A DNA stretch of 64,000 nucleotides, taken from contig ONJM01000018.1 in the NCBI GenBank assembly GCA_900318145.1, forward strand, positions 1 to 64,000, in the 5' to 3' direction. The notes under the pieces were generated by a model. It ran no database searches. It was not told the DNA's origin and saw nothing but the letters and a program-made list of their open reading frames with translations. Shown here in pieces: positions 32,446-54,174 of the stretch; position 1 is the first letter of the stretch; each line of letters begins with the position of its first letter. The stretch comes from an uncultured Eubacteriales bacterium. Its GTDB lineage: Bacteria; Bacillota; Clostridia; Christensenellales; Aristaeellaceae. Position numbers and translations under genes: made by a program.

Positions 32446-32861
32446 ACAAGTATTACGAGGGCATAAGGATGCTGACATTCCCGACATTTAATGATAATGG
32501 ATATATCGAGGTTGAAGGGTGCAAGGATGTTCCGTTCGAAATTAAGAGAATATTCTATATTTTCGGCAAAGGAAATGTAGGCACAGTACGGGGCAAACAC
32601 TCAAATCGAAAATCAGAGTTTGTTTTGTTCAATGTTAAGGGGAAAAGTAAAGTCAAAACAATTGATGAAAACAGAAATGAGGTTGTTTACGAACTGAATG
32701 AACCCAATCAGGCAGTTTATCTTCCCAAATATGTCTGGAAGGAAATGTATGACTTTACGGAAGATTCCGTATTGATGGTCCTCACCAATGAATACTATGA
32801 CGCCACGGAATATATCAGAGATTTTGATGAGTTTGCGGCGGAAATGAAAGCGGAGGCATAA
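32442..32861 (+). CDS. FdtA/WxcM-like sugar 3,4-ketoisomerase cupin
   Basis: This 139-residue cupin matches the FdtA/QdtA/WxcM family, which converts dTDP-4-keto-6-deoxyglucose to the 3-keto isomer on the way to 3-amino-3,6-dideoxyhexoses. Family features: [40 protein letters not shown] and [16 protein letters not shown]. The catalytic loop reads [11 protein letters not shown] rather than the usual RGxHAHK, so the second histidine is replaced. GTG 32442 overlaps the upstream stop and has GGGGAGGG seven bases ahead. The next gene is the matching aminotransferase. Confidence 0.8.
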
Positions 32862-32865: not shown

Positions 32866-33957
32866 ATGAAAGTCGATGCGGTAGTATTGAAAAGGACATT
32901 TGATTTGCATAAGGAAGAATATGAGGAAGCAGCACTGAGGGCGCTCAATTCGGGATGGTATATTCTTGGAAAAGAGATGCTGGAATTTGAAAAGCAGTTT
33001 GCCGAGTGGACCGGAAGGAAGTATTGTGTGGCTCTGAACTCCGGGACTGACGCGCTGATCCTGGCTTTCCGTGCTTTGGGCATCGGTCCTGGGGATGAAG
33101 TGATTGTACCGGCCAATACCTACATTGCTTCTGTCATCGGCATTACGGAAAACGGCGCGACACCGGTATTTGTGGACGCGGATGATCATATGGAAATTGA
33201 TGCGGATCAGATTGAGGGAAAGATTACCAGCCGGACAAAAGCAGTCCTGCCGGTTCATCTGTATGGCCAGCCCAGCAGAATGGATATCATTACGGAACTT
33301 GCAGACAAGTATAATCTCAAAATTGTTGAAGACTGCGCACAATGCCACGGGTCAACCTTTAAAGGGAAGAAAACAGGAACATTCGGCACGCTGGGCTGCT
33401 TCAGCTTTTATCCGACCAAACCGCTCGGGGCCTTTGGCGACGCGGGAGCCATTGTAACGGATGATGAAGAGCTTGCGGAAAAACTGAGAATGCTGAGATT
33501 CTACGGATCCAAAGTCAAATACCATAATGAAATCAAGGGCGTTAACAGCCGTATGGACGAGATCCAGGCGGCCATCCTGCAGGTCGGCCTCCAATACCTC
33601 GACGCAGGGAACGAGGAAAGAAGACGCCAGGCGAATTTGTACAAGGCAGGCATTGTCAACAACAAGGTAGTCATTCCCCCGACCTATGCGGACGTTTATC
33701 ATGTATATCATCTTTTCCCCGTTCTTGTGGAAAACCGGGAAGCTTTCCAGTCATACCTGAAAGAAAACGGCATCAATACCCAGGTGCATTATCCGATTCC
33801 GCCTTATGTGGCAGAATGCTATAAAGAATGGGGATATAACTGGAGCGATTTTCCGAATGCGGAAAAATACGCAAAACAGGAAGTATCACTGCCGATCTAT
33901 TGCGGCATGCCGGATGAAGAGATAAAGTATGTAATAGAGGTAATAAATAATTACTGA
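32866..33957 (+). CDS. DegT/DnrJ/EryC1-type sugar aminotransferase (FdtB-like)
   Basis: The 363-residue PLP enzyme has the family signatures: [33 protein letters not shown] (PLP-contacting aspartate) and [15 protein letters not shown] with the PLP-binding lysine. Together with the neighbouring ketoisomerase it should make dTDP-Fuc3N or dTDP-Qui3N from the 3-keto intermediate, using glutamate as amino donor. The dTDP-glucose enzymes RmlA and RmlB that feed this pathway are not in the window. GGAGG nine bases upstream supports ATG 32866. Length is usual for the family. Confidence 0.85.
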
Positions 33958-34077: not shown

Positions 34078-35001
34078 ATGAAGACAGCGTTCCTCTTTTC
34101 CGGTCAGGGTGCACAATATCCCGGAATGATAAAAGATCTGTATGAAACGGAACCTGCGGTAAAAGCCGTATTTGATTCAGCGGATAAAGTGCTGAACCGG
34201 AAGATTTCCGAACTGTGTTTTTCCGGGACGCAGGAAGAGCTGAATCTGACGCACAATACACAACCCTGTGTGCTGGCGGCAGACCTTGCGGCGGGCATGT
34301 GCCTGAAAGCGCACGGAATAATGCCGGACGCGGCTGCGGGCTTTTCTCTCGGGGAGTATGCCGCGCTGGCCTTTGCGGGATCGATGAGCACAGATGAAGC
34401 TTTCAGGATTATTCAGATCCGTGCGGATGCCATGCAGGAAGCGGTGGCACCCGGGGAAGGAGCTATGGCTGCTTTTGTCGGCATTACTCCGGAACAGGCG
34501 GAGATAATCTGTGAACAGGCGGGAGCATATGTTGTTCCGGCAAATTATAACAGCCCGGTACAAACGGTCGTTTCGGGAACAGCCAAAGGCGTGGACAGAG
34601 CCTGCGAAATCGCGGAAGCGCAGGGATTTCGCTGTGTGAAGCTTGCGGTCAGCGCACCGTTCCATTGCAAACTGATGGAACCGGCAGCGATGAAACTGAA
34701 GGAGGTTTTTTCTTCCATTACGTTTTTGAAGCCCGCAATCCCTGTCTATATGAATGTAAACGGCAGGCAGCCGGAAGAAACGGACAATATTTCCGATTTG
34801 CTGGTGAAGCAGGCAATGAGTCCGGTGCGTTGGGTACAGACGCTGCAGAAAATGCGGGAGGACGGGATCGATACATTTATTGAGTGCGGTCCGGGACGGA
34901 CACTTTCCGGACTGGTCAAAAAGACACTGAAGGACGTTACGGTCCTGCGCGTGGAAGACAGCAAAACGCTGATGAACACGCTTGAAGCCATGAAAGCATG
35001 A
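34078..35001 (+). CDS. fabD: Malonyl-CoA:ACP transacylase (FabD-like)
   Basis: The 307-residue protein shows the FabD motifs: LFSGQGAQYPGM at the N-terminus, GFSLGEYAAL with the nucleophile serine, the IQIRADAMQEA arginine that binds the malonyl carboxylate, and SAPFHCKLM with the catalytic histidine. It loads malonyl from CoA onto an acyl carrier protein. Full length for the family. This is probably not the housekeeping copy, because it sits in a polysaccharide operon, next to its own KAS III, reductases, carrier proteins and a malonyl-CoA-forming transcarboxylase. The next gene overlaps by four bases. Confidence 0.85.
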   Translation: MKTAFLFSGQGAQYPGMIKDLYETEPAVKAVFDSADKVLNRKISELCFSGTQEELNLTHNTQPCVLAADLAAGMCLKAHGIMPDAAAGFSLGEYAALAFAGSMSTDEAFRIIQIRADAMQEAVAPGEGAMAAFVGITPEQAEIICEQAGAYVVPANYNSPVQTVVSGTAKGVDRACEIAEAQGFRCVKLAVSAPFHCKLMEPAAMKLKEVFSSITFLKPAIPVYMNVNGRQPEETDNISDLLVKQAMSPVRWVQTLQKMREDGIDTFIECGPGRTLSGLVKKTLKDVTVLRVEDSKTLMNTLEAMKA

Positions 35002-35624
35002 AGATTGAACAGTATGATTCCGGGCTTCTGCATTCAAACATGTATGTGATATTCGAGAACGGGCATGCGATTGTGATCGATCCGTCATTGAACACCGAGC
35101 CGGCTAGAGATCTTGAAATCGACTGGATTCTGCTGACGCATGAGCATTACGACCACATTTCCGGCGTGAACGCATGGAAGGAGAAAACACACGGGAAAGT
35201 CCTTTGTTCGGCAGCGTGCGCCGAAAGGATCCGGAATCCCAACAAAAACCTGGCCAGATTGTTTCCGGAGTTCTGTCAGCTGCAGACATGGATTGATCAT
35301 TATGAGGTTCCGGATACGGACAGAGGATACAGATGCTCCGCGGACGAAACATTTAGTGATGAAACGCGGTTTGTATGGCAGGGGCACCTGATACGGCTTC
35401 AGGAAATACCGGGTCATTCGCCGGGAAGCATAGGAATCTTTTTTGACCGGGATTGTTTTTTCTCCGGTGACAGCCTGCTGAAAAACCGGGAGATCGAACT
35501 GAGGTTTCCCGGCGGAAGCAGGGAACAATGGGCTCAGACGGGATTGGCCAGAATAGAAGCTGTTCCAAAGGGGACGATTATTTATCCGGGCCATTTTGAA
35601 AAATACAAATTAACGGAACACTAA
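34998..35624 (+). CDS. Metallo-beta-lactamase-fold hydrolase
   Basis: The 208-residue protein has the MBL fold signature THEHYDHISG (HxHxDH), then GHSPGSIGIFF, SGDSLL and a final YPGHFEKY histidine, giving a full metal site for one or two zinc or iron ions. In this context a thioesterase or glyoxalase II-like activity on an acyl thioester is the likeliest role (inference); MBL thioesterases occur in polyketide clusters. It is translationally coupled to FabD (ATGA overlap). Confidence 0.8.
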   Translation: MKIEQYDSGLLHSNMYVIFENGHAIVIDPSLNTEPARDLEIDWILLTHEHYDHISGVNAWKEKTHGKVLCSAACAERIRNPNKNLARLFPEFCQLQTWIDHYEVPDTDRGYRCSADETFSDETRFVWQGHLIRLQEIPGHSPGSIGIFFDRDCFFSGDSLLKNREIELRFPGGSREQWAQTGLARIEAVPKGTIIYPGHFEKYKLTEH

Positions 35625-35641
35625 GGGAGGATCACCACAGA

Positions 35642-36730
35642 ATGTCTGTTTTCAGGAGTGAGGGAATCGGAATCGCCGGAATTGCCTGCGCAGTTCCGAA
35701 AAATCATGTAGCAGTGGACAGTTTTATTCCTGTTTTCGGGGAAGAAGTTACTTCAAAGTTCACAGCCGGAACCGGAATAAAGGCAATGTATAAGGCCCTT
35801 CCGGAACAAACAGCCAGCGATCTGGCCGTGGCTGCGGCGGAAAATCTGTTTTCCCGCACAGATATCGGTAGAAATGAAATCGGAGCCATGCTGATGGTAA
35901 CCCAGTCCCCGGATTACCGCAGGCCTTCCAGCGCCAGCATTGTTCAAAAAAGGCTGGGGCTTCCGATCGACTGTTCCTGCATGGAGATCAATCTTGGCTG
36001 TTCCGGGTTTGTTTACGGTCTGCAGACGGCCATGTCGCTGATGAACAGTTCGGATATCCGTTACGCGCTTCTGCTTATGGGAGAGACGGCGTCCAAGCTG
36101 GTTGATCCGAAAGATAAATCCATCGTCATGATGTACGGCGACGCCGGAGCGGCGATTCTTCTGGCCAGGCAGCCGGAAGCAAAAACAACAACGCTGCTGC
36201 GGAGCGACGGCGACCGTTTTAAGGCGATTGTCCTGCCTGCCGGCGGATTCCGTGATATGTATCCGGGCCGGGAACGCTTTGTCTGCAGTGACGGAATCGA
36301 ACGTTCCCTTTATGATATTTTTATGGATGGAACCTCTGTGTTTTCTTTTTCCATTACGGATGTGCCGAAGGCGCTGAAAGATTATCTGGAAGCGACGGGT
36401 ACCGGCGCAGCGGATTATGACGCCTTTGTTTTCCATCAGGCCAATCAGTTTATTATCAATCAGCTGATCCGTAAAATGAAGCTGCCCAAAGACTGTGTTC
36501 CTGTTTCACTGGACCGTTACGGAAACACCGGCGGAATATCCATTCCGCTTACGCTTTGCGACGCGTTTGGAAAAGAAGATTCCGGCAAAAAGAGACTGCT
36601 GATGTGCGGTTTCGGTATCGGACTTTCCTGGGGTGTTTCCAATGCGGAGCTTGATACCGGAAAAGTGTATCCGATCATCGAGACGGAAGATTACTATGCG
36701 GAAGGGAAATTTGTTCCCGGAACATATTGA
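35642..36730 (+). CDS. 3-oxoacyl-ACP synthase III (FabH-like)
   Basis: A 362-residue KAS III with the catalytic triad visible: the cysteine in EINLGCSGFVYGL, the histidine in FVFHQANQFIINQL and the asparagine in RYGNTGGISIP. The C-terminal GFGIGLSWG is also typical. FabH-type enzymes condense an acyl-CoA primer with malonyl-ACP to give a 3-ketoacyl-ACP. It is slightly longer than housekeeping FabH (about 320). No FabF-type elongation enzyme is nearby, so a single condensation is the simplest reading. GGGAGG precedes ATG 35642. Confidence 0.85.
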   Translation: MSVFRSEGIGIAGIACAVPKNHVAVDSFIPVFGEEVTSKFTAGTGIKAMYKALPEQTASDLAVAAAENLFSRTDIGRNEIGAMLMVTQSPDYRRPSSASIVQKRLGLPIDCSCMEINLGCSGFVYGLQTAMSLMNSSDIRYALLLMGETASKLVDPKDKSIVMMYGDAGAAILLARQPEAKTTTLLRSDGDRFKAIVLPAGGFRDMYPGRERFVCSDGIERSLYDIFMDGTSVFSFSITDVPKALKDYLEATGTGAADYDAFVFHQANQFIINQLIRKMKLPKDCVPVSLDRYGNTGGISIPLTLCDAFGKEDSGKKRLLMCGFGIGLSWGVSNAELDTGKVYPIIETEDYYAEGKFVPGTY

Positions 36731-36743
36731 GGAAACGGAAACA

Positions 36744-37499
36744 ATGCGGAATCTGATTGATTTTTCAGGGAAAAAGATTATCGTTGCAGGCGCTTCATCC
36801 GGAATCGGCAGGCAGACAGCCATTGTGCTCAGCACAGTTGGCGCCCGGGTGATTTTGATTGCCAGGAGAGAGGAAAAGCTTCAGGAAACGCTACGGCTGC
36901 TTGAGGGAGAAGGGCACAGTTGTTACGCGGCGGATCTGAGCGATCTGGAGGGTATAGAACCTCTTTTCAAAAGAATTTATGAAGAGCAGGGCGCGTCAGA
37001 CGGCCTTGTTTACTGTGCGGGAATAAACTCGACTTTGCCTCTGCAGCAACTGAAGCCGCAAAAATTGCAGGATGTTTTTCAGACCAATTTTTTCGGGTTT
37101 ATTGAAACGGTCCGGCAGGCGGTACGGCGCGGAAGATTCAACGAAGGAATGCGGATCGTTGCTGTTTCTTCAAATGCAGCGATACGGGGAGACAAGGCGC
37201 ATACAGCATATTCTTCTTCGAAAGCGGCCATGAACGCGGCAGTCCGCTGCCTTGCAAAGGAGCTTGCAGACAAAGGAATCAATATAAACGCCGTTTCCCC
37301 TGCTGTAACAAACACAGAGATCTATCGGCAATATGCTTCTGAATCCAGCGACAGTGAAAAAGCCCTTATGGAGAGGCAGTATCTGGGACTGATTGAACCG
37401 GAGGATGTTGCGGATTCAATCGTTTTCTTGTTAAGTCCCGCCGCAAAAATGATCACAGGAACTGTACTTTTTGTGGATGGCGGATTATCATCAAACTAA
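36744..37499 (+). CDS. Short-chain dehydrogenase/reductase 1 (FabG-like)
   Basis: The 251-residue SDR has the NAD(P)-binding GASSGIGRQ, the NNAG-equivalent YCAGIN, catalytic Ser in VAVSSNAAIRG and Tyr-Lys in AYSSSKAAMNA. It ends with DGGLSSN, as is common in 3-oxoacyl-ACP reductases. The likely reaction is reduction of the 3-keto product of the KAS III to 3-hydroxyacyl-ACP. ATG 36744 with GAGGAAA is chosen over the long upstream extension, which overlaps the KAS III gene. The carrier protein gene follows within 20 bases. Confidence 0.8.
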   Translation: MRNLIDFSGKKIIVAGASSGIGRQTAIVLSTVGARVILIARREEKLQETLRLLEGEGHSCYAADLSDLEGIEPLFKRIYEEQGASDGLVYCAGINSTLPLQQLKPQKLQDVFQTNFFGFIETVRQAVRRGRFNEGMRIVAVSSNAAIRGDKAHTAYSSSKAAMNAAVRCLAKELADKGININAVSPAVTNTEIYRQYASESSDSEKALMERQYLGLIEPEDVADSIVFLLSPAAKMITGTVLFVDGGLSSN

Positions 37500-37518
37500 A
37501 AATGCAGGAGGTATTACC

Positions 37519-37740
37519 ATGTCTGAACAGGAAAAAATCGCAATGATCGAGGAAACGCTGGAGCTGGATGAGGGGACGCTGACGCCTGATACGGTACTGG
37601 CGGATGTGGATGAGTACGATTCCATGGCAAAGCTGTCCCTGATTGTTATGGCGGATGATGAATTCGGCGTTAAGCTCACCGGAGACATGATCAAGGGATT
37701 CAAAACTGTTGCTGATATACTCGCCGTGCTGGACAAGTAA
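37519..37740 (+). CDS. Acyl carrier protein 1
   Basis: A 73-residue acidic helical protein with the 4'-phosphopantetheine site EYDSMAKLSLIVMADDEFG (serine of DSM). Size and pattern fit an ACP. It lies directly after the reductase and before a second carrier protein. GCAGGAGG seven bases upstream fixes ATG 37519. Confidence 0.85.
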   Translation: MSEQEKIAMIEETLELDEGTLTPDTVLADVDEYDSMAKLSLIVMADDEFGVKLTGDMIKGFKTVADILAVLDK

Positions 37741-37759
37741 AGAATCGAGGATAATCAAG

Positions 37760-37999
37760 ATGGACAACCTGAAGAAATACAATGATGTGTTTTGCAGAGT
37801 TCTTGGCGTCAATGAATCCATGCTGAATGAAAAGTTCACTTTCAAGGATGTACCGCAATGGGATTCGGTGGCACATCTTTCCCTGATCTCCGAACTGGAG
37901 GATACGTTTGATGTGTTTTTTGAATCAGGGGATATTCTGCATTACGGATCCTATCTGAACGGAATAGAGATTCTGAAAAGATACGGTGTAGAGTTCTGA
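37760..37999 (+). CDS. Acyl carrier protein 2 (polysaccharide-cluster type)
   Basis: A 79-residue acidic protein with the phosphopantetheine motif QWDSVAHLSLISELEDTF. The W-DS-x-x-H pattern is that of carrier proteins found with acyl-AMP ligases in surface polysaccharide and secondary-metabolite clusters rather than of fatty acid synthase ACP. It follows ACP 1 by 19 bases with CGAGGA upstream of ATG 37760. Two different carriers suggest two acyl donors or a hand-over. Confidence 0.8.
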   Translation: MDNLKKYNDVFCRVLGVNESMLNEKFTFKDVPQWDSVAHLSLISELEDTFDVFFESGDILHYGSYLNGIEILKRYGVEF

Positions 38000-38112
38000 T
38001 AAGAATCCGGAAGAACAGACGGAACAGATTGAAAATGGACTTAGCTGTTCTGCGACAATATGCGGAATAAAAGAACCGGGAACAGATTCTTTTCCTGATG
38101 GAGGATATATCG

Positions 38113-38928
38113 ATGGGAGAAAAGTTTGGGAAAGGCAGCAATCTGGTATCGAAGGAAGAAGCAGAGTATGCAAGATACTTAAAAGAGAACTTTTATGATG
38201 CTGTAAACAATAATTCTCCAAAAGTTAATCCCCGGACCAGCTTTTATACAAAGTACGGCAAAAGAATGCTGGATCTTATTATTTCAATACCGGTTTTTCT
38301 GCTGCTTCTGCCGTTGAATCTTATTTTTGCCATATGTACTTTTTGCGATGTCGGCAGGCCGATTTTTTACAAACAGCAAAGAATCGGATTGGATGGGAAA
38401 CCGTTTACATTGGTGAAATTCAGAAATATGAACGAAAAACGGGATGCCGAAGGGAATTTGTTGCCTGCGAGTGAGCGTGTAACTAAGTTCGGACGTTTTA
38501 TGCGAAAACTGTCATTGGATGAATTGTTAAATTTCTGGAGTGTGATAAAAGGCGAGATGTCAATTATCGGTCCCAGACCGCTTCCTGCTTTTTTTCACCA
38601 GCGAATGACTGAACGGCACAACGCAAGGGTAAATGTAAGACCCGGACTTGAATGCCCGAGAATGATTTCAATCACAGAGGAAGAAACGGGTTATTATCAT
38701 GTTCAATTTGAAAATGATATCTGGTATGTGGAAAACATCAGTTTTCTGACAGATCTGAAAATGTTGTTCGGGCTTGTCAGAATGGTTTTTGACACTAAGG
38801 ACAGAACAAAACACGCGAATGTGAATGTGGGCGGGTCCTATTTTGTCGGATACAATGAAGAAGGAATTGCTTTAAGCCTGAGGCTCGCAAAGGAACAATA
38901 TCCACATGTTTCGGAGAAACAAGTCTGA
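38113..38928 (+). CDS. Initiating sugar transferase, catalytic domain with one membrane helix
   Basis: The 271-residue protein is a bacterial sugar transferase (WbaP/PglC-type polyprenyl-phosphate hexose-1-phosphate transferase). Features: YGKRMLDLIISIPVFLLLLP membrane re-entrant helix, PIFYKQQRIGLDGKPFTLVK, LDELLNFWSVIKGEMSIIGP with the conserved DE...GxMSxxGPRP motif, and RHNARVNVRPGLE. It moves a sugar phosphate from a nucleotide to undecaprenyl phosphate, the first step of repeat-unit assembly. It lacks the four-helix/Rossmann N-terminal part, which is found fused to a cupin at 31261. ATG 38113 is preferred to 38098 because GGAGG then sits eight bases away. Confidence 0.85.
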   Translation: MGEKFGKGSNLVSKEEAEYARYLKENFYDAVNNNSPKVNPRTSFYTKYGKRMLDLIISIPVFLLLLPLNLIFAICTFCDVGRPIFYKQQRIGLDGKPFTLVKFRNMNEKRDAEGNLLPASERVTKFGRFMRKLSLDELLNFWSVIKGEMSIIGPRPLPAFFHQRMTERHNARVNVRPGLECPRMISITEEETGYYHVQFENDIWYVENISFLTDLKMLFGLVRMVFDTKDRTKHANVNVGGSYFVGYNEEGIALSLRLAKEQYPHVSEKQV

Positions 38929-38976
38929 AACAGTATTTAGCTGGAATAATCAGTTCTACACAGAGGATGAGGAAGA

Positions 38977-39531
38977 ATGATATACCAAGGTATTGTTGAA
39001 GGAATCGGAATCAATCTGCGTCCGGTTGAGGAATCTGATGCTGAATTTACATACATGCTGCGTCAGGACAAAGAAAGAACAAAGTATGTTCACTCCGTAA
39101 GCGGAACTGTTGAAGATCAGCGGAACTGGATCAGAAATCAAAGAAAAAGGGAAGGGGATTACTTTTTCATTGTAGAGGATAAAGAGGGAAATCCCCTGGG
39201 AACCGTTGGATATTATGATCTTGAAGGCAAAAACGGAGAAATGGGGCGGATGGTAATCAACGGAAGTTATGCCCAAAACTGTGACGCGATCCTGCAACTC
39301 AGAAGATTTGCTTTTGAAATAATAGGAGCGGATTATGTGCGCTGTACAGCCGTGAATGGCAATAAGCCTGTTATTGCGCAGCTCAAAAGGCTTGGAGCGG
39401 TTCAGACCAGTTCGTATATTGATGAAAAGGATGGCTTTGAAGTGCTTGTTTTTCAGGTAAAACGTGAAGCTTATGAAGCAAGAAAAGACAAGATTCTGAA
39501 ACTGGTGCAAAGAAGCTATGAGATTGCCTGA
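38977..39531 (+). CDS. GNAT acyltransferase of the polysaccharide locus
   Basis: The 184-residue GNAT-fold protein has INLRPVEESDAEFTYMLRQD at the start, the acetyl-CoA region around GEMGRMVINGSYAQN, and NKPVIAQLKRLGAV near the end. The pyrophosphate loop is less canonical than in the 4020 protein. Its position in the 3-amino-sugar locus with carrier proteins makes it the candidate N-acyltransferase that loads the acyl group on the Fuc3N/Qui3N amine (inference; trimeric LbH enzymes are more usual). GAGGATGAGG precedes ATG 38977. Confidence 0.7.
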   Translation: MIYQGIVEGIGINLRPVEESDAEFTYMLRQDKERTKYVHSVSGTVEDQRNWIRNQRKREGDYFFIVEDKEGNPLGTVGYYDLEGKNGEMGRMVINGSYAQNCDAILQLRRFAFEIIGADYVRCTAVNGNKPVIAQLKRLGAVQTSSYIDEKDGFEVLVFQVKREAYEARKDKILKLVQRSYEIA

Positions 39532-39622
39532 ATCAGCAGAATAAACAATAGATATTCTGTTAAATTCTTTATACTTCCTGAATAACAGACAGTCAATTGA
39601 TTGCTGACATAGGAGCCAACTC

Positions 39623-41173
39623 ATGGATTATCAATGGCAGGAGAAAACGGAATACTTGCTGTCCAGAAGACAGGAAGTGCTTGCGGGCGGCGGCGAAGAC
39701 AGAATCGCCCGGCAGCATGAATCCGGAAAGCTTACGGCGAGGGAACGGATTGAGGCGTTATTCGACGACGGTACTTTTGTTGAAATAAATGACATGATTT
39801 CTTCCCGCGCCACAGATTTCGGGATGGACCGGAAAAAACGGACCGGCGACGGGGTAGTTACAGGATACGGCCGTATACATGGCCGTATCGCATTCGTTGC
39901 TTCCCAGGATTTTACAGTCGGCGGCGGTTCGCTTGGTGAAGCGCATGCCATGAAAATCTGCCGGGCGATGGATAAAGCGCTGGAAATGAAAGTACCGTTT
40001 ATTTCGATCAATGACAGCGGCGGGGCCAGAATTGAGGAAGGAATTGACAGCCTTTCCGGATATGCGGATATCTTTTACCGGAATACGATTGCTTCCGGTG
40101 TGATTCCACAGATTTCGGTGATTCTCGGACCGTGTGCCGGCGGTGCCTGCTATTCACCTGCTATTACCGATTTTATTTTCATGAATGAAGAAACCAGCCA
40201 GATGTACATTACCGGTCCGGCAGTCGTCAAGTCTGTTACGGGAGAAATCATTTCCTCATCGGATCTTGGAGGAGCGTCTGTACATAGTTCGGTGTCCGGT
40301 GTGTCTCATTTTGTTTACCCGGATGATCTTTCCTGTATCAACGGAGTCCGCCGTCTGATGGGATATCTTCCCCAGAACAACGGGGAAATCCCGATGACTG
40401 TTGAAGGACGAAAGACAGACCGTTCAGCTGTTCTTACTGACATTGTTCCGGGTGATTCCAAAAAGGCCTATGACGTCAGGCGGGTCATCGATGCCTTTGC
40501 GGATGCAGGCACTTTTTTTGAGGTTCAGCCGGATTTTGCGAAAAACCTGGTGGTCGGTTTCGCAAGATTATCCGGAGAAGTAATCGGTATCGTCGCAAAT
40601 CAAAGCCAGTATATGGCTGGTTCACTGGAGATCAACGCATCGGATAAGGGAGCCAGGTTCATCCGTTTCTGCGACTGCTTCAATATCCCGCTGCTGACGC
40701 TGGTGGATGTCCCCGCTTTTCTTCCGGGAAGCCAGCAGGAGCATGGGGGGATTATCCGCCATGGAGCGAAAATGCTCTTTGCGTATGCCGAAGCTACCGT
40801 CCCAAAGATCAGCCTGATTATGCGCAAAGCATACGGCGGCGCCTATATTGCCATGAACAGCAAGGGAATCGGGGCGGACATTGTATATGCCTGGCCGATT
40901 GCGGAGATTGCTGTCATGGGCGCGGCGGGAGCTGTTTCAATTATCGGGAAAAAAGAAATTGCCAAAGCGGAAGATCCGACAGCCAAAAAGGAAGAATTGC
41001 TGAATGCATATAACAGCAGGTTTATGAATCCGTATATTGCCGCGGAGCACGGTTATGTGGACGAGGTTATTTTACCGGAGGAAACCAGGGAGCGGATTGC
41101 CGGCGCGTTTCAGATGCTGAAAACAAAAAAACAGATCCGGCCGGTGAAAAAACACGGGAATATACCCCTGTAA
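39623..41173 (+). CDS. Carboxyltransferase, 12S-type (MmdA/PccB family)
   Basis: The 516-residue protein matches the acyl-CoA carboxyltransferase family of methylmalonyl-CoA carboxyltransferase 12S, MmdA and PccB. Landmarks are FTVGGGSLGEAHAMKICRAM, ISINDSGGARIEEGI, PCAGGACYSPAITDF (N-terminal oxyanion region) and, in the second crotonase domain, DVPAFLPGSQQEHGGIIRHG and RKAYGGAYIAM. It would transfer carboxyl between biotin and acetyl- or propionyl-CoA. No biotin carboxylase gene is nearby; the other transcarboxylase subunits follow directly. AGGAG precedes ATG 39623. Confidence 0.85.
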   Translation: MDYQWQEKTEYLLSRRQEVLAGGGEDRIARQHESGKLTARERIEALFDDGTFVEINDMISSRATDFGMDRKKRTGDGVVTGYGRIHGRIAFVASQDFTVGGGSLGEAHAMKICRAMDKALEMKVPFISINDSGGARIEEGIDSLSGYADIFYRNTIASGVIPQISVILGPCAGGACYSPAITDFIFMNEETSQMYITGPAVVKSVTGEIISSSDLGGASVHSSVSGVSHFVYPDDLSCINGVRRLMGYLPQNNGEIPMTVEGRKTDRSAVLTDIVPGDSKKAYDVRRVIDAFADAGTFFEVQPDFAKNLVVGFARLSGEVIGIVANQSQYMAGSLEINASDKGARFIRFCDCFNIPLLTLVDVPAFLPGSQQEHGGIIRHGAKMLFAYAEATVPKISLIMRKAYGGAYIAMNSKGIGADIVYAWPIAEIAVMGAAGAVSIIGKKEIAKAEDPTAKKEELLNAYNSRFMNPYIAAEHGYVDEVILPEETRERIAGAFQMLKTKKQIRPVKKHGNIPL

Positions 41174-41187
41174 CAGGAGGCGCCGGG

Positions 41188-41367
41188 ATGGAAACAGAAA
41201 TGATCGTGGCGATGGCCGTCGCGGCGATTGCAGAGGAAACAGGAACAGATCCCAGGCAGGTGATTGTTCATTCCTTCAAAGAGATACAGAAAAGCAGCCT
41301 GGAAAAATACATTGCGGATCATCATCTGTCCTATCATAAGTACCAGCTGGAGGATCATCACGAATGA
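41188..41367 (+). CDS. Small transcarboxylase/decarboxylase accessory subunit, MmdE/OadG-tail-like
   Basis: This short 59-residue gene is fixed by AGGAGG seven bases before ATG 41188 and by an ATGA overlap with the biotin carrier at 41364. It has no membrane segment. The first half, [10 protein letters not shown]-like followed by [10 protein letters not shown], resembles the cytosolic C-terminal tail of OadG/MmdD and the small MmdE subunit of methylmalonyl-CoA decarboxylase; the second half is His-rich ([16 protein letters not shown]). It may stabilise the complex. The family link is from memory. Confidence 0.6.
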
Positions 41368-41756
41368 GTAAATATCGGATTACGATTGAGGGAAAAGTTT
41401 ACGAGATGGAAATCGAGCTTTTGCCGGAGGACAGCATGGTACCCGCTCCGAAAAAAGAGGCGTTTAAGGAATTCCGCGGCGCGGACAAGGATACAACCGT
41501 TCGTATTATTGATCCTTCCGCGCAGAAAACAACGATCAATGAAACCGGAGCCGTAACCAGTCCGATGCCCGGGACGGTGATCAGAATTCTCAAATCAGAG
41601 GGTGAGACGGTAAAAAACGGTGAAGTTGTTCTGGTTCTGGAAGCAATGAAAATGGAAAACGAAATCTACGCTCCCAAAGACGGCAGGATCCTGAAAATGG
41701 AATGCTCCCCAGGCAGTACTGTTGCCGGCGGGGAAACGCTGTTTGAAATCGGATAA
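41364..41756 (+). CDS. Biotin carboxyl carrier protein, 1.3S-type
   Basis: The 130-residue protein has an N-terminal [18 protein letters not shown] domain, a linker, and a biotinyl domain (about 60-130) with [12 protein letters not shown] and the biotin-lysine motif EAMKMENEI. It shuttles carboxyl between the 5S-type and 12S-type subunits. This layout matches the transcarboxylase 1.3S and decarboxylase carrier proteins rather than a long AccB. It is coupled to the previous small gene. Confidence 0.9.
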
Positions 41757-41765
41757 GAATAATAT

Positions 41766-43175
41766 ATGATAAAACAGTTTGAGAATAAAAAGCCGTTGCT
41801 GGTTACAGATACCATCCTCCGGGACGCGCATCAGTCCCAGGCAGCGACCCGCATGCGGATTGAGGATATGCTTCCGGCCTGTGAGGTACTCGACAGCATC
41901 GGCTACTGGTCGATTGAATGCTGGGGCGGGGCGACCTTTGACGCCTGTATGCGCTTTCTGAACGAAGACCCGTGGGAACGGCTGAGGACGCTCCGGAAAG
42001 CGCTTCCGAACACCAGGCTGCAGATGCTGCTCCGCGGGCAGAATCTGCTGGGGTACCGACATTACGCGGACGATGTGGTGGAAGCTTTTGTCGCCCGTTC
42101 TGTGGAGAACGGGATTGATGTGGTTCGCGTTTTTGACGCGCTGAACGATCCGCGGAACATGGAAGCCGCGATGAAGGCGGTCCGGAAGAATCACGCGCAT
42201 TGCGAGGCGGCGGTCAGCTACACGACCAGTCCGGTTCATAACGAGGAATACTTCGTGAATCTGGCGGTTCAGCTGGAAAATATGGGCGCGGACACGATCT
42301 GCGTCAAGGATATGGCGAATCTTCTGCTGCCGGAAGCTGCCTATTCGCTGGTCAGAAGGCTGAAGGAAAAGGTGCATGTGCCTATACACATCCATACCCA
42401 TAACACAACCGGTACCGGCGATATGGTTTATCTGATGGCTGCCATGGCCGGCGCGGATATCATCGACTGCGCGCTGTCGCCGTTCGCGAACGGTACCTCC
42501 CAGCCGGCAACGGAATCCATGGTTGCGGCATTGGCCGGTACAGACCGGGATACAGGCCTGGATCAGGGAAAGCTGAGCAGGGCGGCGGCCCATTTCAGGG
42601 ATGTTGCGCAGCGGATGCAGGAGGAAGGCGTTCTGAATCCAAAGGTCCTGCGGGTAGATCCGAAGACCCTGCTGTATCAGGTACCCGGCGGCATGCTGTC
42701 CAATCTGCTCAGCCAGCTGAAGCAGGCGAACGCGGAAGATAAGTTTGAAGAAGTTCTGCAGGAAGTACCAAGGGTCCGGAAAGACTTTGGATATCCGCCG
42801 CTGGTAACGCCGACCAGCCAGATTGTCGGATCCCAGGCAGTTCTGAATGTGATCAGCGGGGAACGGTATAAAATGTTTCCCAAAGAATCCAGGATGCTTC
42901 TGCGGGGCGAATACGGCAGGCTGCCGGGCGCGGTGGATGAGGAAGTACGAAAGAAAGCGGTGGGAGAGGATGAAATCATAACCTGCCGCCCTGCCGATCT
43001 GATACAGCCTGAGATGGAGAAACTGAGAACTGAAACAGCAGAATACGCGAAATGCGAAGAGGATGTTCTGAGCTGCGCGCTGTTTCCGCAGGTTGCATCG
43101 GAATTTCTGAAGAAAAAGTATCAGGGACCAGAACCTGAAAAGGTTCATGAAATTGATGTCCTCTGGAAAAGATAA
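41766..43175 (+). CDS. Oxaloacetate/pyruvate carboxyltransferase subunit, 5S-type
   Basis: The 469-residue HMGL-like TIM-barrel protein fits the 5S subunit of transcarboxylase and the OadA N-terminal part: LLVTDTILRDAHQSQAATRM at the start, WGGATFDACMRFLNEDPW, the carbamylated-lysine motif TICVKDMANLLLP and the metal-binding HIHTHNTTGTG. The C-terminal conserved domain (about 300-460) is present but the biotinyl domain of OadA is absent, being supplied by the separate carrier. With the carrier and 12S it would move carboxyl from oxaloacetate to acyl-CoA. Alternative: a Na+-independent oxaloacetate decarboxylase part. Confidence 0.85.
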   Translation: MIKQFENKKPLLVTDTILRDAHQSQAATRMRIEDMLPACEVLDSIGYWSIECWGGATFDACMRFLNEDPWERLRTLRKALPNTRLQMLLRGQNLLGYRHYADDVVEAFVARSVENGIDVVRVFDALNDPRNMEAAMKAVRKNHAHCEAAVSYTTSPVHNEEYFVNLAVQLENMGADTICVKDMANLLLPEAAYSLVRRLKEKVHVPIHIHTHNTTGTGDMVYLMAAMAGADIIDCALSPFANGTSQPATESMVAALAGTDRDTGLDQGKLSRAAAHFRDVAQRMQEEGVLNPKVLRVDPKTLLYQVPGGMLSNLLSQLKQANAEDKFEEVLQEVPRVRKDFGYPPLVTPTSQIVGSQAVLNVISGERYKMFPKESRMLLRGEYGRLPGAVDEEVRKKAVGEDEIITCRPADLIQPEMEKLRTETAEYAKCEEDVLSCALFPQVASEFLKKKYQGPEPEKVHEIDVLWKR

Positions 43176-43186
43176 AGAGGTGCTGT

Positions 43187-43951
43187 ATGGGAGAAAGCTC
43201 TTTTGGACTGCTGAAGGGAAAGGTAATCATTGTTACAGGGGCCGGCAGGGGGATCGGCCAGGCTATGGCAACTGTCTTCGCGCAGAACGGCGCGATTGTC
43301 TACGCGACAGACGTCAGACAGGGCTCCGTCGAGGAATGGTGCCCGGAAGCAAACGCGTCTTCGGAAGGTGAGGTTCGATCCCTGTATTTTGATATCAGCA
43401 ATGAACAGGAAGCAAGAAACGCGGTGACGCGGGTCAAAAAAGAATGCGGGCATATTGACGGGCTGGTAAACAACGCCGGAGTTGAGTTCAATGAACTGAT
43501 CGGCATGATCAGCCCGGAAAACATGCAGAAGATGTTCGCTGTGAATGTTTTCGGAGCGATCAATATGCTGCAGATTGTCAGCCGGATTATGGGAAGGCAG
43601 GAAAACGGCGGAAGCATTGTCAATATCGCGTCCATGGTCGCGCTTCGCGGAAACCGGGGCCAGCTGGTCTATTCCGCGACAAAGGGTGCAGTGGTATCCC
43701 TGACAAAATCCGCGGCCAAGGAGCTGGCTGAAAAGAAGATCCGGGTGAACGCGATCGCTCCCGGACTGACGAATACCGCGATGATGCAGCAGGCTGATCC
43801 GGAAAAGCTGCAGAGCAGGATTAACAACATCTGCATGGGCCGCCTTGCGGAACCGGAGGATATCGCGAAAGCCTGTATGTTTATGCTGTCAGATCTGTCC
43901 GAATATGTATCCGGGCAGATCCTGGCGGTGGACGGTTGCACGATTATGTGA
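43187..43951 (+). CDS. Short-chain dehydrogenase/reductase 2 (FabG-like)
   Basis: A 254-residue SDR with GAGRGIGQAM, NNAGVEFNELIG, Ser in VNIASMVALRG, Tyr-Lys in VYSATKGAVVSL and NAIAPGLTNTAMM. This is a second FabG-type reductase in the acyl module, so one may act on the 3-ketoacyl chain and the other on another oxo group, for instance a keto sugar or a second acyl intermediate. It follows the 5S gene by 11 bases with AGAGGTG before ATG 43187. Confidence 0.8.
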   Translation: MGESSFGLLKGKVIIVTGAGRGIGQAMATVFAQNGAIVYATDVRQGSVEEWCPEANASSEGEVRSLYFDISNEQEARNAVTRVKKECGHIDGLVNNAGVEFNELIGMISPENMQKMFAVNVFGAINMLQIVSRIMGRQENGGSIVNIASMVALRGNRGQLVYSATKGAVVSLTKSAAKELAEKKIRVNAIAPGLTNTAMMQQADPEKLQSRINNICMGRLAEPEDIAKACMFMLSDLSEYVSGQILAVDGCTIM

Positions 43952-43987
43952 GCAGAAACGGCAAAAGAGTCAAAGGAGAAGCAGACC

Positions 43988-45394
43988 ATGTTTTTGAATG
44001 TCGACAGACATGACCAGACCAAAACGGCAATCAAGGATGACAGCGGTTATTCACTTACCTACGGGGATGTTTGCGAGACTATCCGGGAATTTGACAATCT
44101 GAAGCTTCCGCGCAGCGTGATTTTCTGTCTGTGCGAGAACTGCGCAGGATCTCTGATCGGTTATATGGCTTTTGAAAACAACAGACAGGTTCCCCTGCTG
44201 CTCAGCGCCGGGCTGGACGATGAACTGAGGGCACGTCTGGAGAGCATGTATACACCTTCCTATTACTGGATTCCGGAAAGAAAAAAGGAAGAGATAGCAG
44301 GTGAGCCGGTTTATTCCGCGTTCGGATATATACTGCTGAAAACGAAATACGAGCCGTACCCGCTGAATGAAAACCTGTCCATGCTGCTGACTACATCCGG
44401 CTCCACGGGAAGCCCCAAGCTTGTACGCCATAAGTACGGGAACCTGGAAGCGAACGCGGAAAATGTCGCGAAGGTTTTCAGCTGGAGCGTAAACGAAGTC
44501 GGCATCTGCGATCTGCCGATGAACTATACCATGGGGCTGAACGTGATTAACAGCCATCTGACAGTCGGCGCTTCCGTGCTGATGATCAAGACGAACCTGA
44601 TGGATCCTGATTTCTGGGAATTCATTAAAGTCAACAAAGGCACCAGTTTCTGCGGTGTTCCCTTCAGCTACGAGGTCATGCGCCGGGTCGGATTCGATCA
44701 GATGGACCTGCCGGATCTTTATACGCTCGCGGAGGGCGGCGGCAAACTGACAGACAAGATGTTTACCTGGATTGCGACCTACTGCAAAAACAGCGGGAAA
44801 CGCTTCTGCGCCACATTCGGCACCAGTGAAACCAGCGCCCGGATGGCATTCCTGGATCCGGACCTCGCACTGGAAAAAATCGGCAGCATGGGGAAAGCAA
44901 TCCCGAACGGAGAGCTTTTCCTGCTGGATGAGATAGAAAACGAAGACGGAACAGTAACCGGTGAACTGGGGTACCGCGGACCGAACGTGACGATGGGATA
45001 CGCGCTTTGCAGGGAAGACCTGATGAAGGGCGATGAATTCCAAGGTGAATACCATACAGGGGATATCGCAAAGAGGGACAGGGACGGTTTCTATTTTATC
45101 ATCGGCAGAAAAGGCCGTTTCCTGAAGCTTTTCGGCCTTCGGGTCAGCCTGGATGAGACAGAAAGAATCCTGAAGACATGGCAGCCTGCAGCGGATTTTG
45201 TCTGTACGGGCGATGACAAAAGGATGAATATCTTTACAACGGATGCGGCACTGAAAGATGAAATCGTTCCCTTTATCAGCGGGAAAACAAACCTGCACAA
45301 TTCCGCGTTCAGAGTTTTTGTGATCAACGAGATACCGCGGAACGACTATGGAAAAGTCAAGTTTGCTGAGCTGGAAAAAATAACGGGAGAATAA
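43988..45394 (+). CDS. AMP-forming acyl-CoA/acyl-ACP ligase
   Basis: The 468-residue protein belongs to the ANL adenylating superfamily: LLTTSGSTGSPKLVRH is the ATP-binding loop, FGTSETSARMA the second core motif, EYHTGDIAKRD the hinge aspartate region, and the C-terminal IPRNDYGKVKFAEL contains the catalytic lysine. The N-terminal domain is short. It activates a carboxylic acid as acyl-AMP and passes it to CoA or, more likely here, to carrier protein 2. Its substrate (short hydroxy acid, amino acid, fatty acid) cannot be read from sequence. Confidence 0.85.
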   Translation: MFLNVDRHDQTKTAIKDDSGYSLTYGDVCETIREFDNLKLPRSVIFCLCENCAGSLIGYMAFENNRQVPLLLSAGLDDELRARLESMYTPSYYWIPERKKEEIAGEPVYSAFGYILLKTKYEPYPLNENLSMLLTTSGSTGSPKLVRHKYGNLEANAENVAKVFSWSVNEVGICDLPMNYTMGLNVINSHLTVGASVLMIKTNLMDPDFWEFIKVNKGTSFCGVPFSYEVMRRVGFDQMDLPDLYTLAEGGGKLTDKMFTWIATYCKNSGKRFCATFGTSETSARMAFLDPDLALEKIGSMGKAIPNGELFLLDEIENEDGTVTGELGYRGPNVTMGYALCREDLMKGDEFQGEYHTGDIAKRDRDGFYFIIGRKGRFLKLFGLRVSLDETERILKTWQPAADFVCTGDDKRMNIFTTDAALKDEIVPFISGKTNLHNSAFRVFVINEIPRNDYGKVKFAELEKITGE

Positions 45395-45452
45395 TTCGGG
45401 TGAACCAGCTTCCCGATCAGGAGAAATACTGAACAAGACAGGGTGAATGCTG

Positions 45453-46595
45453 ATGACAATCTGGGTAATCGGCCGGAGCTATCCGACAAAACAAAACAAA
45501 ATGTCCGGGTCCTTTGAACTGGAGCAGGCAAAGCTGATCGCGAAATATGGGGAAGGAAAAGATAAAGTAAGCTATATTACTGTATGTTTTCATCCTTTCA
45601 GAAAAATCAGGAAAAGAGGATACTGTTCATTTGAGGAAGACGGTGTTTCTATCTATGCCGATTCAGTATTGTTTGTTCCGGATAAGCTTCATATTCATCT
45701 GAAACCGTTTCGAAAATTTATCTGGAAAAGACTGCTGCAAAAAGTTGAAAAAGAGACTGGCATTCCGGATGTGATTCATGTTCATTATCCGGCGCTGATT
45801 ACAGTGCCTGAACCGATCCTGGAGTACCAGAAAAAAGGAACGCGCGTGGTTCTGACGGAGCACTGGACGAAAGTACTGAACAATACGATCGACTCTTTTC
45901 AAAGGAAACAGCTTACGCAGTATGTTCAGAACGCAGACCGGGTTATTTGTGTTGGCCAGCCGTTAAAAGAATCCATTCAAAAGATTACAGGCGCAGACCG
46001 GAAACTGGTTGTAATTCCCAATGTTGTTTCAAATCTGTTTTATCCGGAAAGAAACGCGAAGGGGAAATGCTTTAACTTTGTTACTGTCGGAAGGCTTGTT
46101 CCGGTAAAGCAGATGGATCAGGTGGCGCTCGCGTTTTCAAAGGCTTTTGCAGGCCGAGAGGACATTACACTTACGGTTGTGGGAGGCGGCGGAGAAAGAA
46201 AAAAAATAGAGTCTGTCATAAAATCCTACCATATGGAATCGCAGATCCTTATGACCGGAACACTGTCCCGTGAAGAGACCGCGCAGAAGGTCAGGGCCGC
46301 GGACGCGCTGGTCTGTTTCAGTCGCCTTGAGACCTTCGGGGTTCCTGTGATTGAAGCATGGGCCAGCGGGATACCTGCGATTGCTACAGACTGCCTTGGA
46401 TTCCTGGAATACTGGACAGAGGATCTCGGAATTCTGGTCCGGCATGACAAACCGGAAGAGCTGGAAACGGCAATGAAGCTGATCCATAGTAATTCAGACA
46501 GATATGACGCTGAAAAGATATCCCGGTTTGCGCAGGATAATTTCAGTGAGCCGGTGGTTTATCATAAACTCATGCAGATCTATAAAGAAACATGA
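45453..46595 (+). CDS. Glycosyltransferase, GT4 family
   Basis: The 380-residue GT-B enzyme has a C-terminal nucleotide-binding half with VGRLVPVKQMDQV and the retaining-GT motif SRLETFGVPVIEAWASGIPA (E-x7-E). It adds a sugar to the lipid-linked repeat unit on the cytoplasmic side. ATG 45453 is preferred over 45447 because AGGGTGA is then six bases away. It is the only clear glycosyltransferase in the locus. Confidence 0.85.
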   Translation: MTIWVIGRSYPTKQNKMSGSFELEQAKLIAKYGEGKDKVSYITVCFHPFRKIRKRGYCSFEEDGVSIYADSVLFVPDKLHIHLKPFRKFIWKRLLQKVEKETGIPDVIHVHYPALITVPEPILEYQKKGTRVVLTEHWTKVLNNTIDSFQRKQLTQYVQNADRVICVGQPLKESIQKITGADRKLVVIPNVVSNLFYPERNAKGKCFNFVTVGRLVPVKQMDQVALAFSKAFAGREDITLTVVGGGGERKKIESVIKSYHMESQILMTGTLSREETAQKVRAADALVCFSRLETFGVPVIEAWASGIPAIATDCLGFLEYWTEDLGILVRHDKPEELETAMKLIHSNSDRYDAEKISRFAQDNFSEPVVYHKLMQIYKET

Positions 46596-46616
46596 TGATA
46601 CGGGTTGGAGCGGACT

Positions 46617-47882
46617 ATGACGCAAAGGAAAGTGAAGATTGTTCAGTTTGATCTTATCTGGATAATCGGATTTCTGTTTTTTTTCAAGCCGGCATCGTAT
46701 GTAGTAGGAGATACAGCGGGTAAGCTCCTGAATGGCATAGTACTGGGCATTTCCTTAGGAATGGTTTTGCTTGCTATGCTGCTGTTCGGGCATGGATACA
46801 AGGTGAGTAAACCAGTATTAGGGATATTGGTACTATATTTCTGGATGCTGGTCGGCTCTTCTGTCTTGAATATGGTAAAAGGAAATCAGATTGATCTCCT
46901 GGATGTTGTAGTTTATTCTTCATCGACACTTTGTTTTGTTCTTTTGTGCGATGTGGGATGCTGGTATTCTCCTGAAAGGACATGCCGTATTTTTTTGATT
47001 GTTGGGATAATCATGTGTTCCTTGAATGCGGTATCTATGTTTATGTTTAAAGGTGCCGGAGGACTGAATCACGAGACAGTAAATGAGCTGACTACTCCTG
47101 ATTATTACCTTCTGGCACGCGATAACGCATCATATTTCTGGAGTTGGCCTGTTCTGGTGATGGCATGGTTATATTATTACAGGTACAATCCGAAAAAAAA
47201 TATGCGACGGATCGCGTTGGGCTATACATTTCTGTTGGTTGCGAGTTATATATATGTATGGTCGGTACTCGCGGCTGTGGCATGCCTGTGTGTTCCGCTG
47301 GTTTTGCTTCTGCTCATGCATGAACTGAAAAAAGAGAAAAAGCAGGGGAAAAAGAAAAGCGCAATCACGAAGCTTGTAAAGCTAAAGATTCTGTGGCCGC
47401 TGGGTCTTGGGTTCAATATTATTCTATCACAGGGAATAATTATCCAGTGGTTTGCCCCAATTATTGAAAATGTTTTCAATAAGAAGCTGACCCTGTCCGG
47501 CAGAACACTTATATGGGAAAAAGCATATGCTGAAATTGCAAAATCTCCTTTGATCGGTTATGGCTGTGAACCGGTGGATGTTTCCATCGTAAAAATAATC
47601 TTAAATCATGCTCATAATCTGTATCTCGAAATTCTGTACCGGGGAGGAATCATTGGCCTGCTGCTGTTTATTATCGCATTTATACTGATCAGTGACAAAG
47701 CAGACAGAATCAAAAACAATGTTCTCAGTAAATACCTGATTCTGATGGTTTTCCTTTTTATCATCGGAAGTTCGGTTGAATTTGCTTTTTACAGGTATCA
47801 TTACTTAATCATTCTTGTATATCTCTGCCATAGTGAATTATTCAGCACAAAAAACAAGGGATTGGAGTTATTGCGCCTATGA
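46617..47882 (+). CDS. O-antigen polymerase/ligase family protein (Wzy-like)
   Basis: This 421-residue protein has about ten to twelve membrane helices and the Wzy_C/O-antigen ligase signature ILNHAHNLYLEILYRGGIIG in a large loop near residue 335, preceded by YAEIAKSPLIGYGCEP. Such proteins polymerise repeat units on the outer face of the membrane. GGAG six bases ahead supports ATG 46617 over TTG 46605. It overlaps the pyruvyl-transferase-family gene by four bases. Confidence 0.8.
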   Translation: MTQRKVKIVQFDLIWIIGFLFFFKPASYVVGDTAGKLLNGIVLGISLGMVLLAMLLFGHGYKVSKPVLGILVLYFWMLVGSSVLNMVKGNQIDLLDVVVYSSSTLCFVLLCDVGCWYSPERTCRIFLIVGIIMCSLNAVSMFMFKGAGGLNHETVNELTTPDYYLLARDNASYFWSWPVLVMAWLYYYRYNPKKNMRRIALGYTFLLVASYIYVWSVLAAVACLCVPLVLLLLMHELKKEKKQGKKKSAITKLVKLKILWPLGLGFNIILSQGIIIQWFAPIIENVFNKKLTLSGRTLIWEKAYAEIAKSPLIGYGCEPVDVSIVKIILNHAHNLYLEILYRGGIIGLLLFIIAFILISDKADRIKNNVLSKYLILMVFLFIIGSSVEFAFYRYHYLIILVYLCHSELFSTKNKGLELLRL

Positions 47883-48955: not shown

Positions 48956-49011
48956 GGGAACACAGTTATTGGTAGACCCCAAAAATATCATTGCAATGGA
49001 GGTTGGTTACG

Positions 49012-50736: not shown

Positions 50737-50759
50737 CGGATAATATAAGGACCGGAATT

Positions 50760-54172: not shown

Positions 54173-54174
54173 TG

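Follow-up and report, generated by a model that had tools for sequence, protein, structure and literature searches.

A clostridial surface-glycan operon with a predicted pathway of its own for building and attaching a short-chain hydroxyacyl group

The viosamine island of Pseudomonas syringae, as far as the excerpts of the cited reports describe it (a limit that holds for all of the published loci discussed here), consists of vioA, vioM, vioT, vioS, vioB, vioR and acp, with one 3-ketoacyl-acyl carrier protein synthase III (KAS III) and a sugar bearing a 3-hydroxybutyryl group, and deletion of vioR eliminates the modified sugar (PMC3927599). For the O-polysaccharide genes wfpC, wfpD, wfpE, wfpF and wfpG of Flavobacterium psychrophilum, the authors proposed a type II-like synthesis of the R group (PMC6519341), and in E. 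coli O103 and Hafnia alvei PCM1211, RmlA, FdtAB and FdhC were assigned to 3-hydroxybutyrylation of dTDP-Fuc3N (PMC4869667). Here, we analyze an operon in a 64,000-nucleotide stretch (the window) of contig ONJM01000018.1 (C37 in our numbering) from an uncultured Eubacteriales bacterium (GCA_900318145.1), in which acyl-building genes are interleaved with sugar genes. Judged from its sequence, the operon probably serves a surface glycan and contains a short-chain acyl pathway dedicated to it, which would place a 3-hydroxybutyryl group on an amino sugar and would draw on its own supply of malonyl-CoA.

The window fits the kind of glycan-locus hydroxyacyl cassette found in the viosamine and wfp systems, with KAS, ketoreductase, acyl carrier protein (ACP) and N-acyltransferase genes beside sugar genes, and with no dehydratase. 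Like the window, the viosamine island holds KAS III, 3-oxoacyl-ACP reductase, ACP, aminotransferase and N-acyltransferase genes in one glycan locus with no dehydratase listed, and its product carries 3-hydroxybutyryl; unlike the window, it modifies flagellin with a 4-amino sugar, and FabD, transcarboxylase, metallo-hydrolase and ligase are not among its seven listed open reading frames (ORFs). The wfp genes share KAS, ACP and ketoreductase with the window and its relatives and include a PglD-type acyltransferase, and several of the relatives resemble the wfp locus in combining a PglD-type gene with at least two KAS III genes. The wfp genes differ in having two KAS and in yielding 3,5-dihydroxyhexanoyl on Qui2NAc4N, with no malonyl supply described in the excerpt (PMC6519341). 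The FdhC system of O103 and PCM1211 has FdtA/FdtB-type genes and an FdhC acyltransferase as the window does, but no acyl-building module is named in its locus in the part of the report available (PMC4869667). Similarly, the group II flagellar glycosylation islands of Aeromonas carry an ACP, a 3-oxoacyl-ACP reductase and an AMP-dependent synthetase beside glycan genes, but they have luxC and luxE, and KAS III and transcarboxylase are not named in the excerpt (PMC7874193). Thus, the locus, for which the original prediction knew of no equal, has partial precedents and is less isolated than was thought.

All of the module genes named in that prediction are present by Pfam and NCBIfam, on a single strand and with intact residues. 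They belong to a run of 22 co-directional genes with clean frames (31261-53310), to which a small ORF (41188-41367) is added; the acyl-module genes are all on the plus strand, each with one terminal stop, and are separated by -4 to 190 bases. FabD, the malonyl-CoA:ACP transacylase (34078..35001), meets the TIGR00128 cut-off (281 bits; cut-off 260.9), has an intact Ser-Arg-His-Gln site and is the sole FabD found in a search of its own assembly. It is followed by a glyoxalase II-like hydrolase of the metallo-beta-lactamase fold (34998..35624; PF00753; glyoxalase II 1xm8 in the PDB, E 9.6e-11), a probable thioesterase, and by a KAS III (35642..36730; PF08541/PF08545) with an intact Cys120-His265-Asn295 triad. 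Next come SDR1 (36744..37499; PF13561/PF00106 on a longer ORF from 36633; Ser-Tyr-Lys), a short-chain dehydrogenase/reductase (SDR) that appears to be a FabG-type ketoreductase, ACP1 (37519..37740; PF00550), with its Ser in 53 of 53 aligned sequences, and ACP2 (37760..37999), which gave no match in the Pfam scan and matches NCBIfam NF002150 at E 7e-4, below cut-off, with its Ser in 35 of 35. Farther downstream lie SDR2 (43187..43951; assigned by Pfam; Ser-Tyr-Lys), a second reductase or dehydrogenase, and an AMP-forming acyl ligase (43988..45394; PF00501) of the ANL fold, in which both checked Lys positions are kept. Of 22 aligned SDR2 rows, 12, including that of the window, end strand 2 with an Asp, a residue that at this place often indicates NAD over NADP. 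The catalytic residues checked were intact in KAS III, FabD, both SDRs, both ACPs, the biotin carrier, the 5S-like protein and the ligase, and the same residues were kept in aligned relatives, truncated rows excepted. No dehydratase or FabF family was found among the operon ORFs scanned with Pfam, as had been claimed.

The sugar genes begin upstream of FabD with a fusion (31261..32445, plus strand) of the N-terminal membrane/CoA_binding_3 half of a polyprenyl glycosylphosphotransferase (PF13727; TIGR03025 over residues 19-244, below cut-off) to an FdtA/QdtA-like 3,4-ketoisomerase (PF05523; closest PDB match QdtA 4o9e, E 2.2e-21). The transferase appears to be split, its catalytic half being the separate initiating sugar-phosphate transferase ~6 kb away (38098..38928, plus; PF02397, E 1.7e-48), and genome G409 (L042/L072) has a protein of similar length that is 40% identical to the fusion. 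The second FdtA/QdtA-like ketoisomerase (32442..32861, plus; PF05523 on the ORF from 32394; 4o9e, E 5.2e-26) has, in the alignment, His-x-Asn where His-x-His is expected, as in WlaRA 5tpv. It is followed by a QdtB/FdtB-like sugar aminotransferase (32866..33957, plus; PF01041) that is predicted to aminate C3; homologues of a ketoisomerase and a C3-type aminotransferase thus occur together in the window. Finally, a GNAT (38977..39531, plus) is nearest, by sequence and by fold among the solved structures listed, to FdhC, and is a predicted sugar N-3-hydroxyacyltransferase, in support of the earlier proposal that a 3-hydroxyacyl group would be added to the nitrogen of a 3-amino-3,6-dideoxy sugar. 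The FdhC of E. coli O103 and H. alvei is linked here to the crystallised FdhC (PDB 5ktc) by its name. FdhC is a 3-hydroxybutanoyl transferase whose acyl-CoA donor is supplied by the host.

Between the GNAT and SDR2, all three transcarboxylase subunit types are present with their active residues. The 12S-like carboxyltransferase (39623..41173, plus; PF01039, E 7e-184) matches the propionyl-CoA carboxylase beta chain 1vrg (E 7.1e-194), the acetyl-CoA carboxylase chain 7w5u and the transcarboxylase 12S 1on3 (E 3.2e-178). The 1.3S-like biotin carrier (41364..41756, plus; PF00364) has an EAMKMEN site, with the biotin Lys in 12 of 12 aligned sequences, and the 5S-like oxaloacetate-half carboxyltransferase (41766..43175, plus; PF02436/PF00682) keeps Asp-Lys-His-His in 11 of 11 and matches the transcarboxylase 5S 1rqb (E 1.5e-139), ranked after pyruvate carboxylase and oxaloacetate decarboxylase (OAD) chains. 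The set contains neither a biotin carboxylase partner (PF02785 is absent from the assembly, which is 88% complete) nor a decarboxylase beta subunit; the same genome has one other 5S-type gene (48%), on contig C61, beside the only OAD beta. Between the 12S and the biotin carrier, a small ORF of 59 amino acids (41188..41367, plus) was overlooked in the original prediction; it has no confident Pfam family, and of 11 relatives' loci searched by pattern, 6 contain an ORF like it. The transcarboxylase of 1on3 and 1rqb, from the genus Propionibacterium, has the same three subunit types with catalytic residues kept; the window set differs in lying inside a glycan operon, in having a 5S that fails the NCBIfam transcarboxylase model and in that its substrate is predicted.

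What the sequences establish is the gene content, the integrity of the catalytic sites checked, the recurrence of the set and what the host lacks in this assembly; every reaction that follows, and the product, we infer from the genes. The 5S would move a carboxyl group from oxaloacetate onto the carrier's biotin, and the 12S would pass it to acetyl-CoA, giving malonyl-CoA without acetyl-CoA carboxylase. FabD would charge an ACP with malonyl, KAS III would join malonyl-ACP to acetyl-CoA to give acetoacetyl-ACP, and reduction by SDR1 would give 3-hydroxybutyryl-ACP, at which point the chain would stop for want of a dehydratase. That the C4 unit would have to come by way of KAS III fits with the lack of a thiolase in the assembly. 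On the sugar side, a ketoisomerase and the QdtB/FdtB-like aminotransferase would yield a dTDP-3-amino-3,6-dideoxyhexose, on whose nitrogen the FdhC-like GNAT would place the 3-hydroxybutyryl group, and the neighbouring Wzx/Wzy-type genes would build the acylated sugar into a glycan. For two further enzymes our guess at the most likely roles is that the metallo-hydrolase might act as a thioesterase removing wrong or stalled chains, and that the ligase might re-charge free acid onto ACP2 or CoA. The single condensation that had been predicted agrees with the two precedents in which the KAS count can be tied to chain length, as far as their excerpts go: one KAS III with 3-hydroxybutyryl in the viosamine island and two KAS with 3,5-dihydroxyhexanoyl in wfp.

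The module recurs across families, and so is not a chance assembly of genes. A four-row KAS III alignment run against 84,980 species genomes led to 46 loci, from which we tallied 24: the window and 23 relatives (L060-L082) whose KAS III is 63-88% identical, leaving aside L083-L105, which are weaker or partial KAS III matches (including an 86% fragment, L088). Within the window's own order this KAS III is rare, with 20 of 396 genomes at E 1e-30 or less and identities of at least 40% only in its own genome, G061 (70%) and G035 (45%). FabD is found in 17 of the 24 loci, adjoining the metallo-hydrolase, and the complete 12S-1.3S-5S set in 12, on the same contig within ~20 kb and on the same strand in 11 of the 12. 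The module FabDs form one clade (20 rows, in which two pairs are one gene twice; support 100/99) that spans Lachnospiraceae, Oscillospiraceae, Clostridiaceae and a Chloroflexota metagenome-assembled genome (MAG), separate from the FabDs of type II fatty acid synthesis (FAS II) in the window's own genus; module and canonical labels in this tree were assigned by locus, and long branches elsewhere were flagged as unsure.

The 5S-type genes of 32 genomes fall into 12 at 72-100% identity to that of the window, 19 with a best value of 68% or less, and 1 unmatched. For the 72-100% group, 10 stretches were examined: all 10 have 12S, 1.3S and 5S together on the contig that carries the KAS III module, nine of them on the KAS III strand. 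In 8 of these stretches the 5S is succeeded by SDR2, after which 6 show the ligase (some stretches end there). G409, from the window's genus, has the order 12S-1.3S-5S-SDR2 on the module's strand. Among 16 related genomes, a 12S of at least 53% identity occurs only in the five module carriers (G000, G409, G405, G035 and G061), and none was found in the congeners that lack both FabD and FabF (G079, G311, G403, G422 and G408).

Gene content varies among the relatives. Numbers of KAS III and SDR1 genes per locus were 1/1 in nine loci, 2/1 in seven, 2/2 in five, and 3/3, 3/2 and 1/0 in one each, increasing together (Spearman 0.65 over 24 loci, with counts entered by hand and kinship ignored). By pattern search, a PglD-type gene is present in 13 of the 23 relatives, directly upstream of FabD, hydrolase or KAS III in 12, and the window and L077 have an FdhC-like GNAT and no PglD-type gene; L066 and L072 have two additional PglD-like genes each, judged by eye. 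In L070, a phosphopantetheinyl transferase of the ACPS family (19940-20317) adjoins a 12S. In [Clostridium] aminophilum (L062, 5360-7796), the module's sugar-phosphate transferase, SDR1 and FabD genes are interspersed with genes for a PIG-L deacetylase and for a hexapeptide-repeat protein that weakly matches LpxD. Judged from translations, SDR2 and the ligase are separated in G409 (L118, 556-8443) by genes that encode an MBOAT-like protein together with an additional AMP-ligase and carrier protein, which suggests O-acylation too. Another congener, G405 (L043 9572-16409, and L119), has a distant module in which FabD and KAS III are 35-36% identical and the L043 FabD, at 36%, is outside the FabD clade, with a weak FkbH-like HAD protein, and with a glyoxalase-family gene beside the 12S; no module-type 5S was found in its genome.

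The host, a gut-type bacterium, seems to have dispensed with ordinary fatty acid synthesis and has gaps that bear on malonyl supply. Its assembly (3.24 Mb, 63 contigs) has no biotin carboxylase C-domain (PF02785), no thiolase C-domain and no FabF (PF02801), the genome-wide search for FAS II genes having covered FabD and FabF. The corresponding site was compared in G382, where a cluster read as FabK-FabD-FabG-FabF-AccB-FabZ-AccC-AccD-AccA (gene names other than FabD and FabF are our reading of translations) starts ~530 bases past rplA. In the window genome, likeness to G382 stops at the rplA stop and is followed by a large unrelated ORF that fills the remainder of the 4.8 kb contig; therefore that site has no FAS II cluster, although one may lie elsewhere in the missing 12% of the assembly. 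Among the 24 loci, the complete set was found in 9 of 12 hosts without FabF versus 3 of 12 with FabF (Fisher P = 0.039), and FabD was found in 11 of 12 versus 6 of 12 (P = 0.069); the P values from three earlier forms of the test were 0.013, 0.027 and, when the full set was compared with 12S alone, 0.043. FabF was tallied from 27 of the 46 loci, with that of G061 and G409 taken from a separate search. Thus, the earlier claim of a malonyl-supplying transcarboxylase draws support from the lack of biotin carboxylase and FabF in the host and from co-inheritance, with methylmalonyl as a less probable alternative to malonyl.

A number of results weigh against this reading. The KAS III falls below both curated fabH cut-offs (TIGR00747, 177.6 vs 292.1; NF006829, 210.7 vs 249), and we take it to be a divergent KAS III. 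The top Pfam match of both SDRs, PF13561, is titled "Enoyl-(ACP) reductase", yet we read them as ketoreductase-type because SDR1 is far below the FabL cut-off (135 vs 328) and both have Tyr-x3-Lys, and on these grounds the predicted lack of an enoyl reductase would hold. FabI-type enzymes have a wider Tyr/Lys spacing. For the aminotransferase, the first of 19 PDB rows is the scyllo-inositol transaminase 7b0d (E 3.1e-111), followed by 7n63, with QdtB 3frk third (E 7.1e-107), and none of the NCBIfam aminotransferase models listed, of which PseC is the first, reaches its cut-off. The 12S is below the mmdA cut-off (764.6 vs 998.8), and the 5S fails the transcarboxylase 5S model NF008984 (579.9 vs 827) and meets the oxaloacetate decarboxylase alpha model NF008985 (730.7 vs 718); since this is so, we propose that the set works like a transcarboxylase and make no claim of family membership, and the decarboxylase-alpha and transcarboxylase types would share the same half reaction. 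The simple scheme has no need of the ligase, the hydrolase or SDR2. Among the 24 loci, six carry a 12S although their genomes contain no module-type 5S, and in six the stretch available shows no 12S. The G446 set, along with an ACP pair, runs on the other strand from KAS III, and G061, which has the module and lacks FabF, has its 12S on another contig. The five Fisher tests (P = 0.013 to 0.069) ignore kinship and gaps in genomes that are mostly MAGs and are uncorrected for their number. Moreover, since three FabF-bearing hosts have the full set, lack of acetyl-CoA carboxylase is not the sole reason for the set, and these hosts together with the 12S-only loci and the loci without 12S mean that malonyl supply is not the whole story; the set may also serve methylmalonyl-CoA or a separate malonyl pool.

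More broadly, we tentatively propose that Clostridia without fatty acid synthesis and acetyl-CoA carboxylase keep malonyl-CoA chemistry only for decorating surface sugars, that an oxaloacetate-driven, transcarboxylase-like complex in the glycan locus replaces acetyl-CoA carboxylase, and that the number of KAS III/reductase pairs (one, two or three KAS III in relatives) sets the chain as 3-hydroxybutyryl, 3,5-dihydroxyhexanoyl or trihydroxy. If this is true, there would be a natural malonyl-CoA route that bypasses acetyl-CoA carboxylase and is retained for glycan decoration, and in loci of rumen and gut Clostridia the number of KAS III and reductase genes would allow the acyl group to be predicted; relatives of the locus occur in named strains, among them [Clostridium] aminophilum KH1P1, which has one KAS III, a PglD-type transferase and FdtA- and FdtB-like genes of its own, and [Clostridium] symbiosum ATCC 14940. 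Since unusual N-acyl groups can determine antigen type, as the excerpt on the wfp genes describes (PMC6519341), the locus bears on surface variation of gut bacteria.

A serious rival, although on balance an unlikely one, is that the genes belong to two interleaved acylation units, one (FabD-KAS III-SDR1-ACP1-GNAT) handling one acyl group and the other (ACP2-SDR2-ligase) a different acid. The Aeromonas islands, with the ACP, reductase and synthetase reported in the excerpt (PMC7874193), offer a model for the second unit; ACP2, SDR2 and ligase run consecutively in seven relatives' loci (L062, L063, L070, L076, L079, L080 and L082), and L075 groups KAS III, ACP1 and GNAT without SDR1, ACP2, SDR2 or ligase. 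However, the two units co-occur in many loci in a common neighbourhood, and the window has a single clear sugar N-acyltransferase. A second unit of this kind would in any case be compatible with the 3-hydroxybutyryl pathway.

We consider it distinctly less probable that the set makes methylmalonyl-CoA from propionyl-CoA, so that the acyl group would be 2-methyl-3-hydroxybutyryl or similar. The 12S does match transcarboxylase 12S as well as beta chains of propionyl-CoA carboxylase (1vrg, for example), malonyl supply alone leaves the set in 3 of 12 FAS II-bearing hosts unexplained, and the glyoxalase-family gene beside the G405 12S could be a methylmalonyl-CoA epimerase. Yet FabD passes the cut-off of an ACP S-malonyltransferase family, the product of the crystallised FdhC bears an unbranched 3-hydroxybutyryl group, and the 12S has Ile in its YGGAYI stretch as in the acetyl-CoA carboxylase 7w5u, although the same residue is found in 1vrg, whose annotation is propionyl-CoA carboxylase.

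It seems very unlikely that the assembly simply misses a normal FAS II/acetyl-CoA carboxylase cluster and that the set is an ordinary anaplerotic or decarboxylase enzyme. The MAG is incomplete, six congeners carry a FAS II cluster, and the 5S passes the oxaloacetate decarboxylase model; but FAS II is lacking at the syntenic site past rplA, FabF is likewise absent from the FabD-less congeners G079, G311, G403 and G422, which are 91-97% complete, a separate OadA and the only OAD beta are located at C61, and set and module share a contig in every stretch examined. That KAS III, hydrolase and ligase produce a diffusible metabolite and merely hitch-hike in a glycan locus is highly improbable: their combination resembles pqsA/BCD/E and the KAS III matches the PQS enzyme 3h76 (E 5.4e-29), but relatives keep the module with aminotransferase, sugar-phosphate transferase and PglD- or FdhC-type N-acyltransferases.

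The rest of the glycan operon (45447..53310, plus strand) encodes a glycosyltransferase, a Wzy-like polymerase/ligase, a pyruvyl transferase family protein, a thiamine pyrophosphate (TPP) enzyme, a Wzx-like flippase and an epimerase family protein. The TPP enzyme (48991-50736) is MenD-like, below cut-off, has no relative among the ORFs of the compared loci, and might produce a branched sugar. The outer parts of the window are richer in GC (0.56 and 0.53) than 31.0-53.3 kb (0.47) and 22-31 kb (0.46). On either side of the operon lie genes for BspA-type leucine-rich-repeat and fibronectin-III proteins (17635-21963 on the minus strand, 22188-27673 and 53528-62500); some of the leucine-rich-repeat proteins have transglutaminase-like domains and one has a caspase-like domain.

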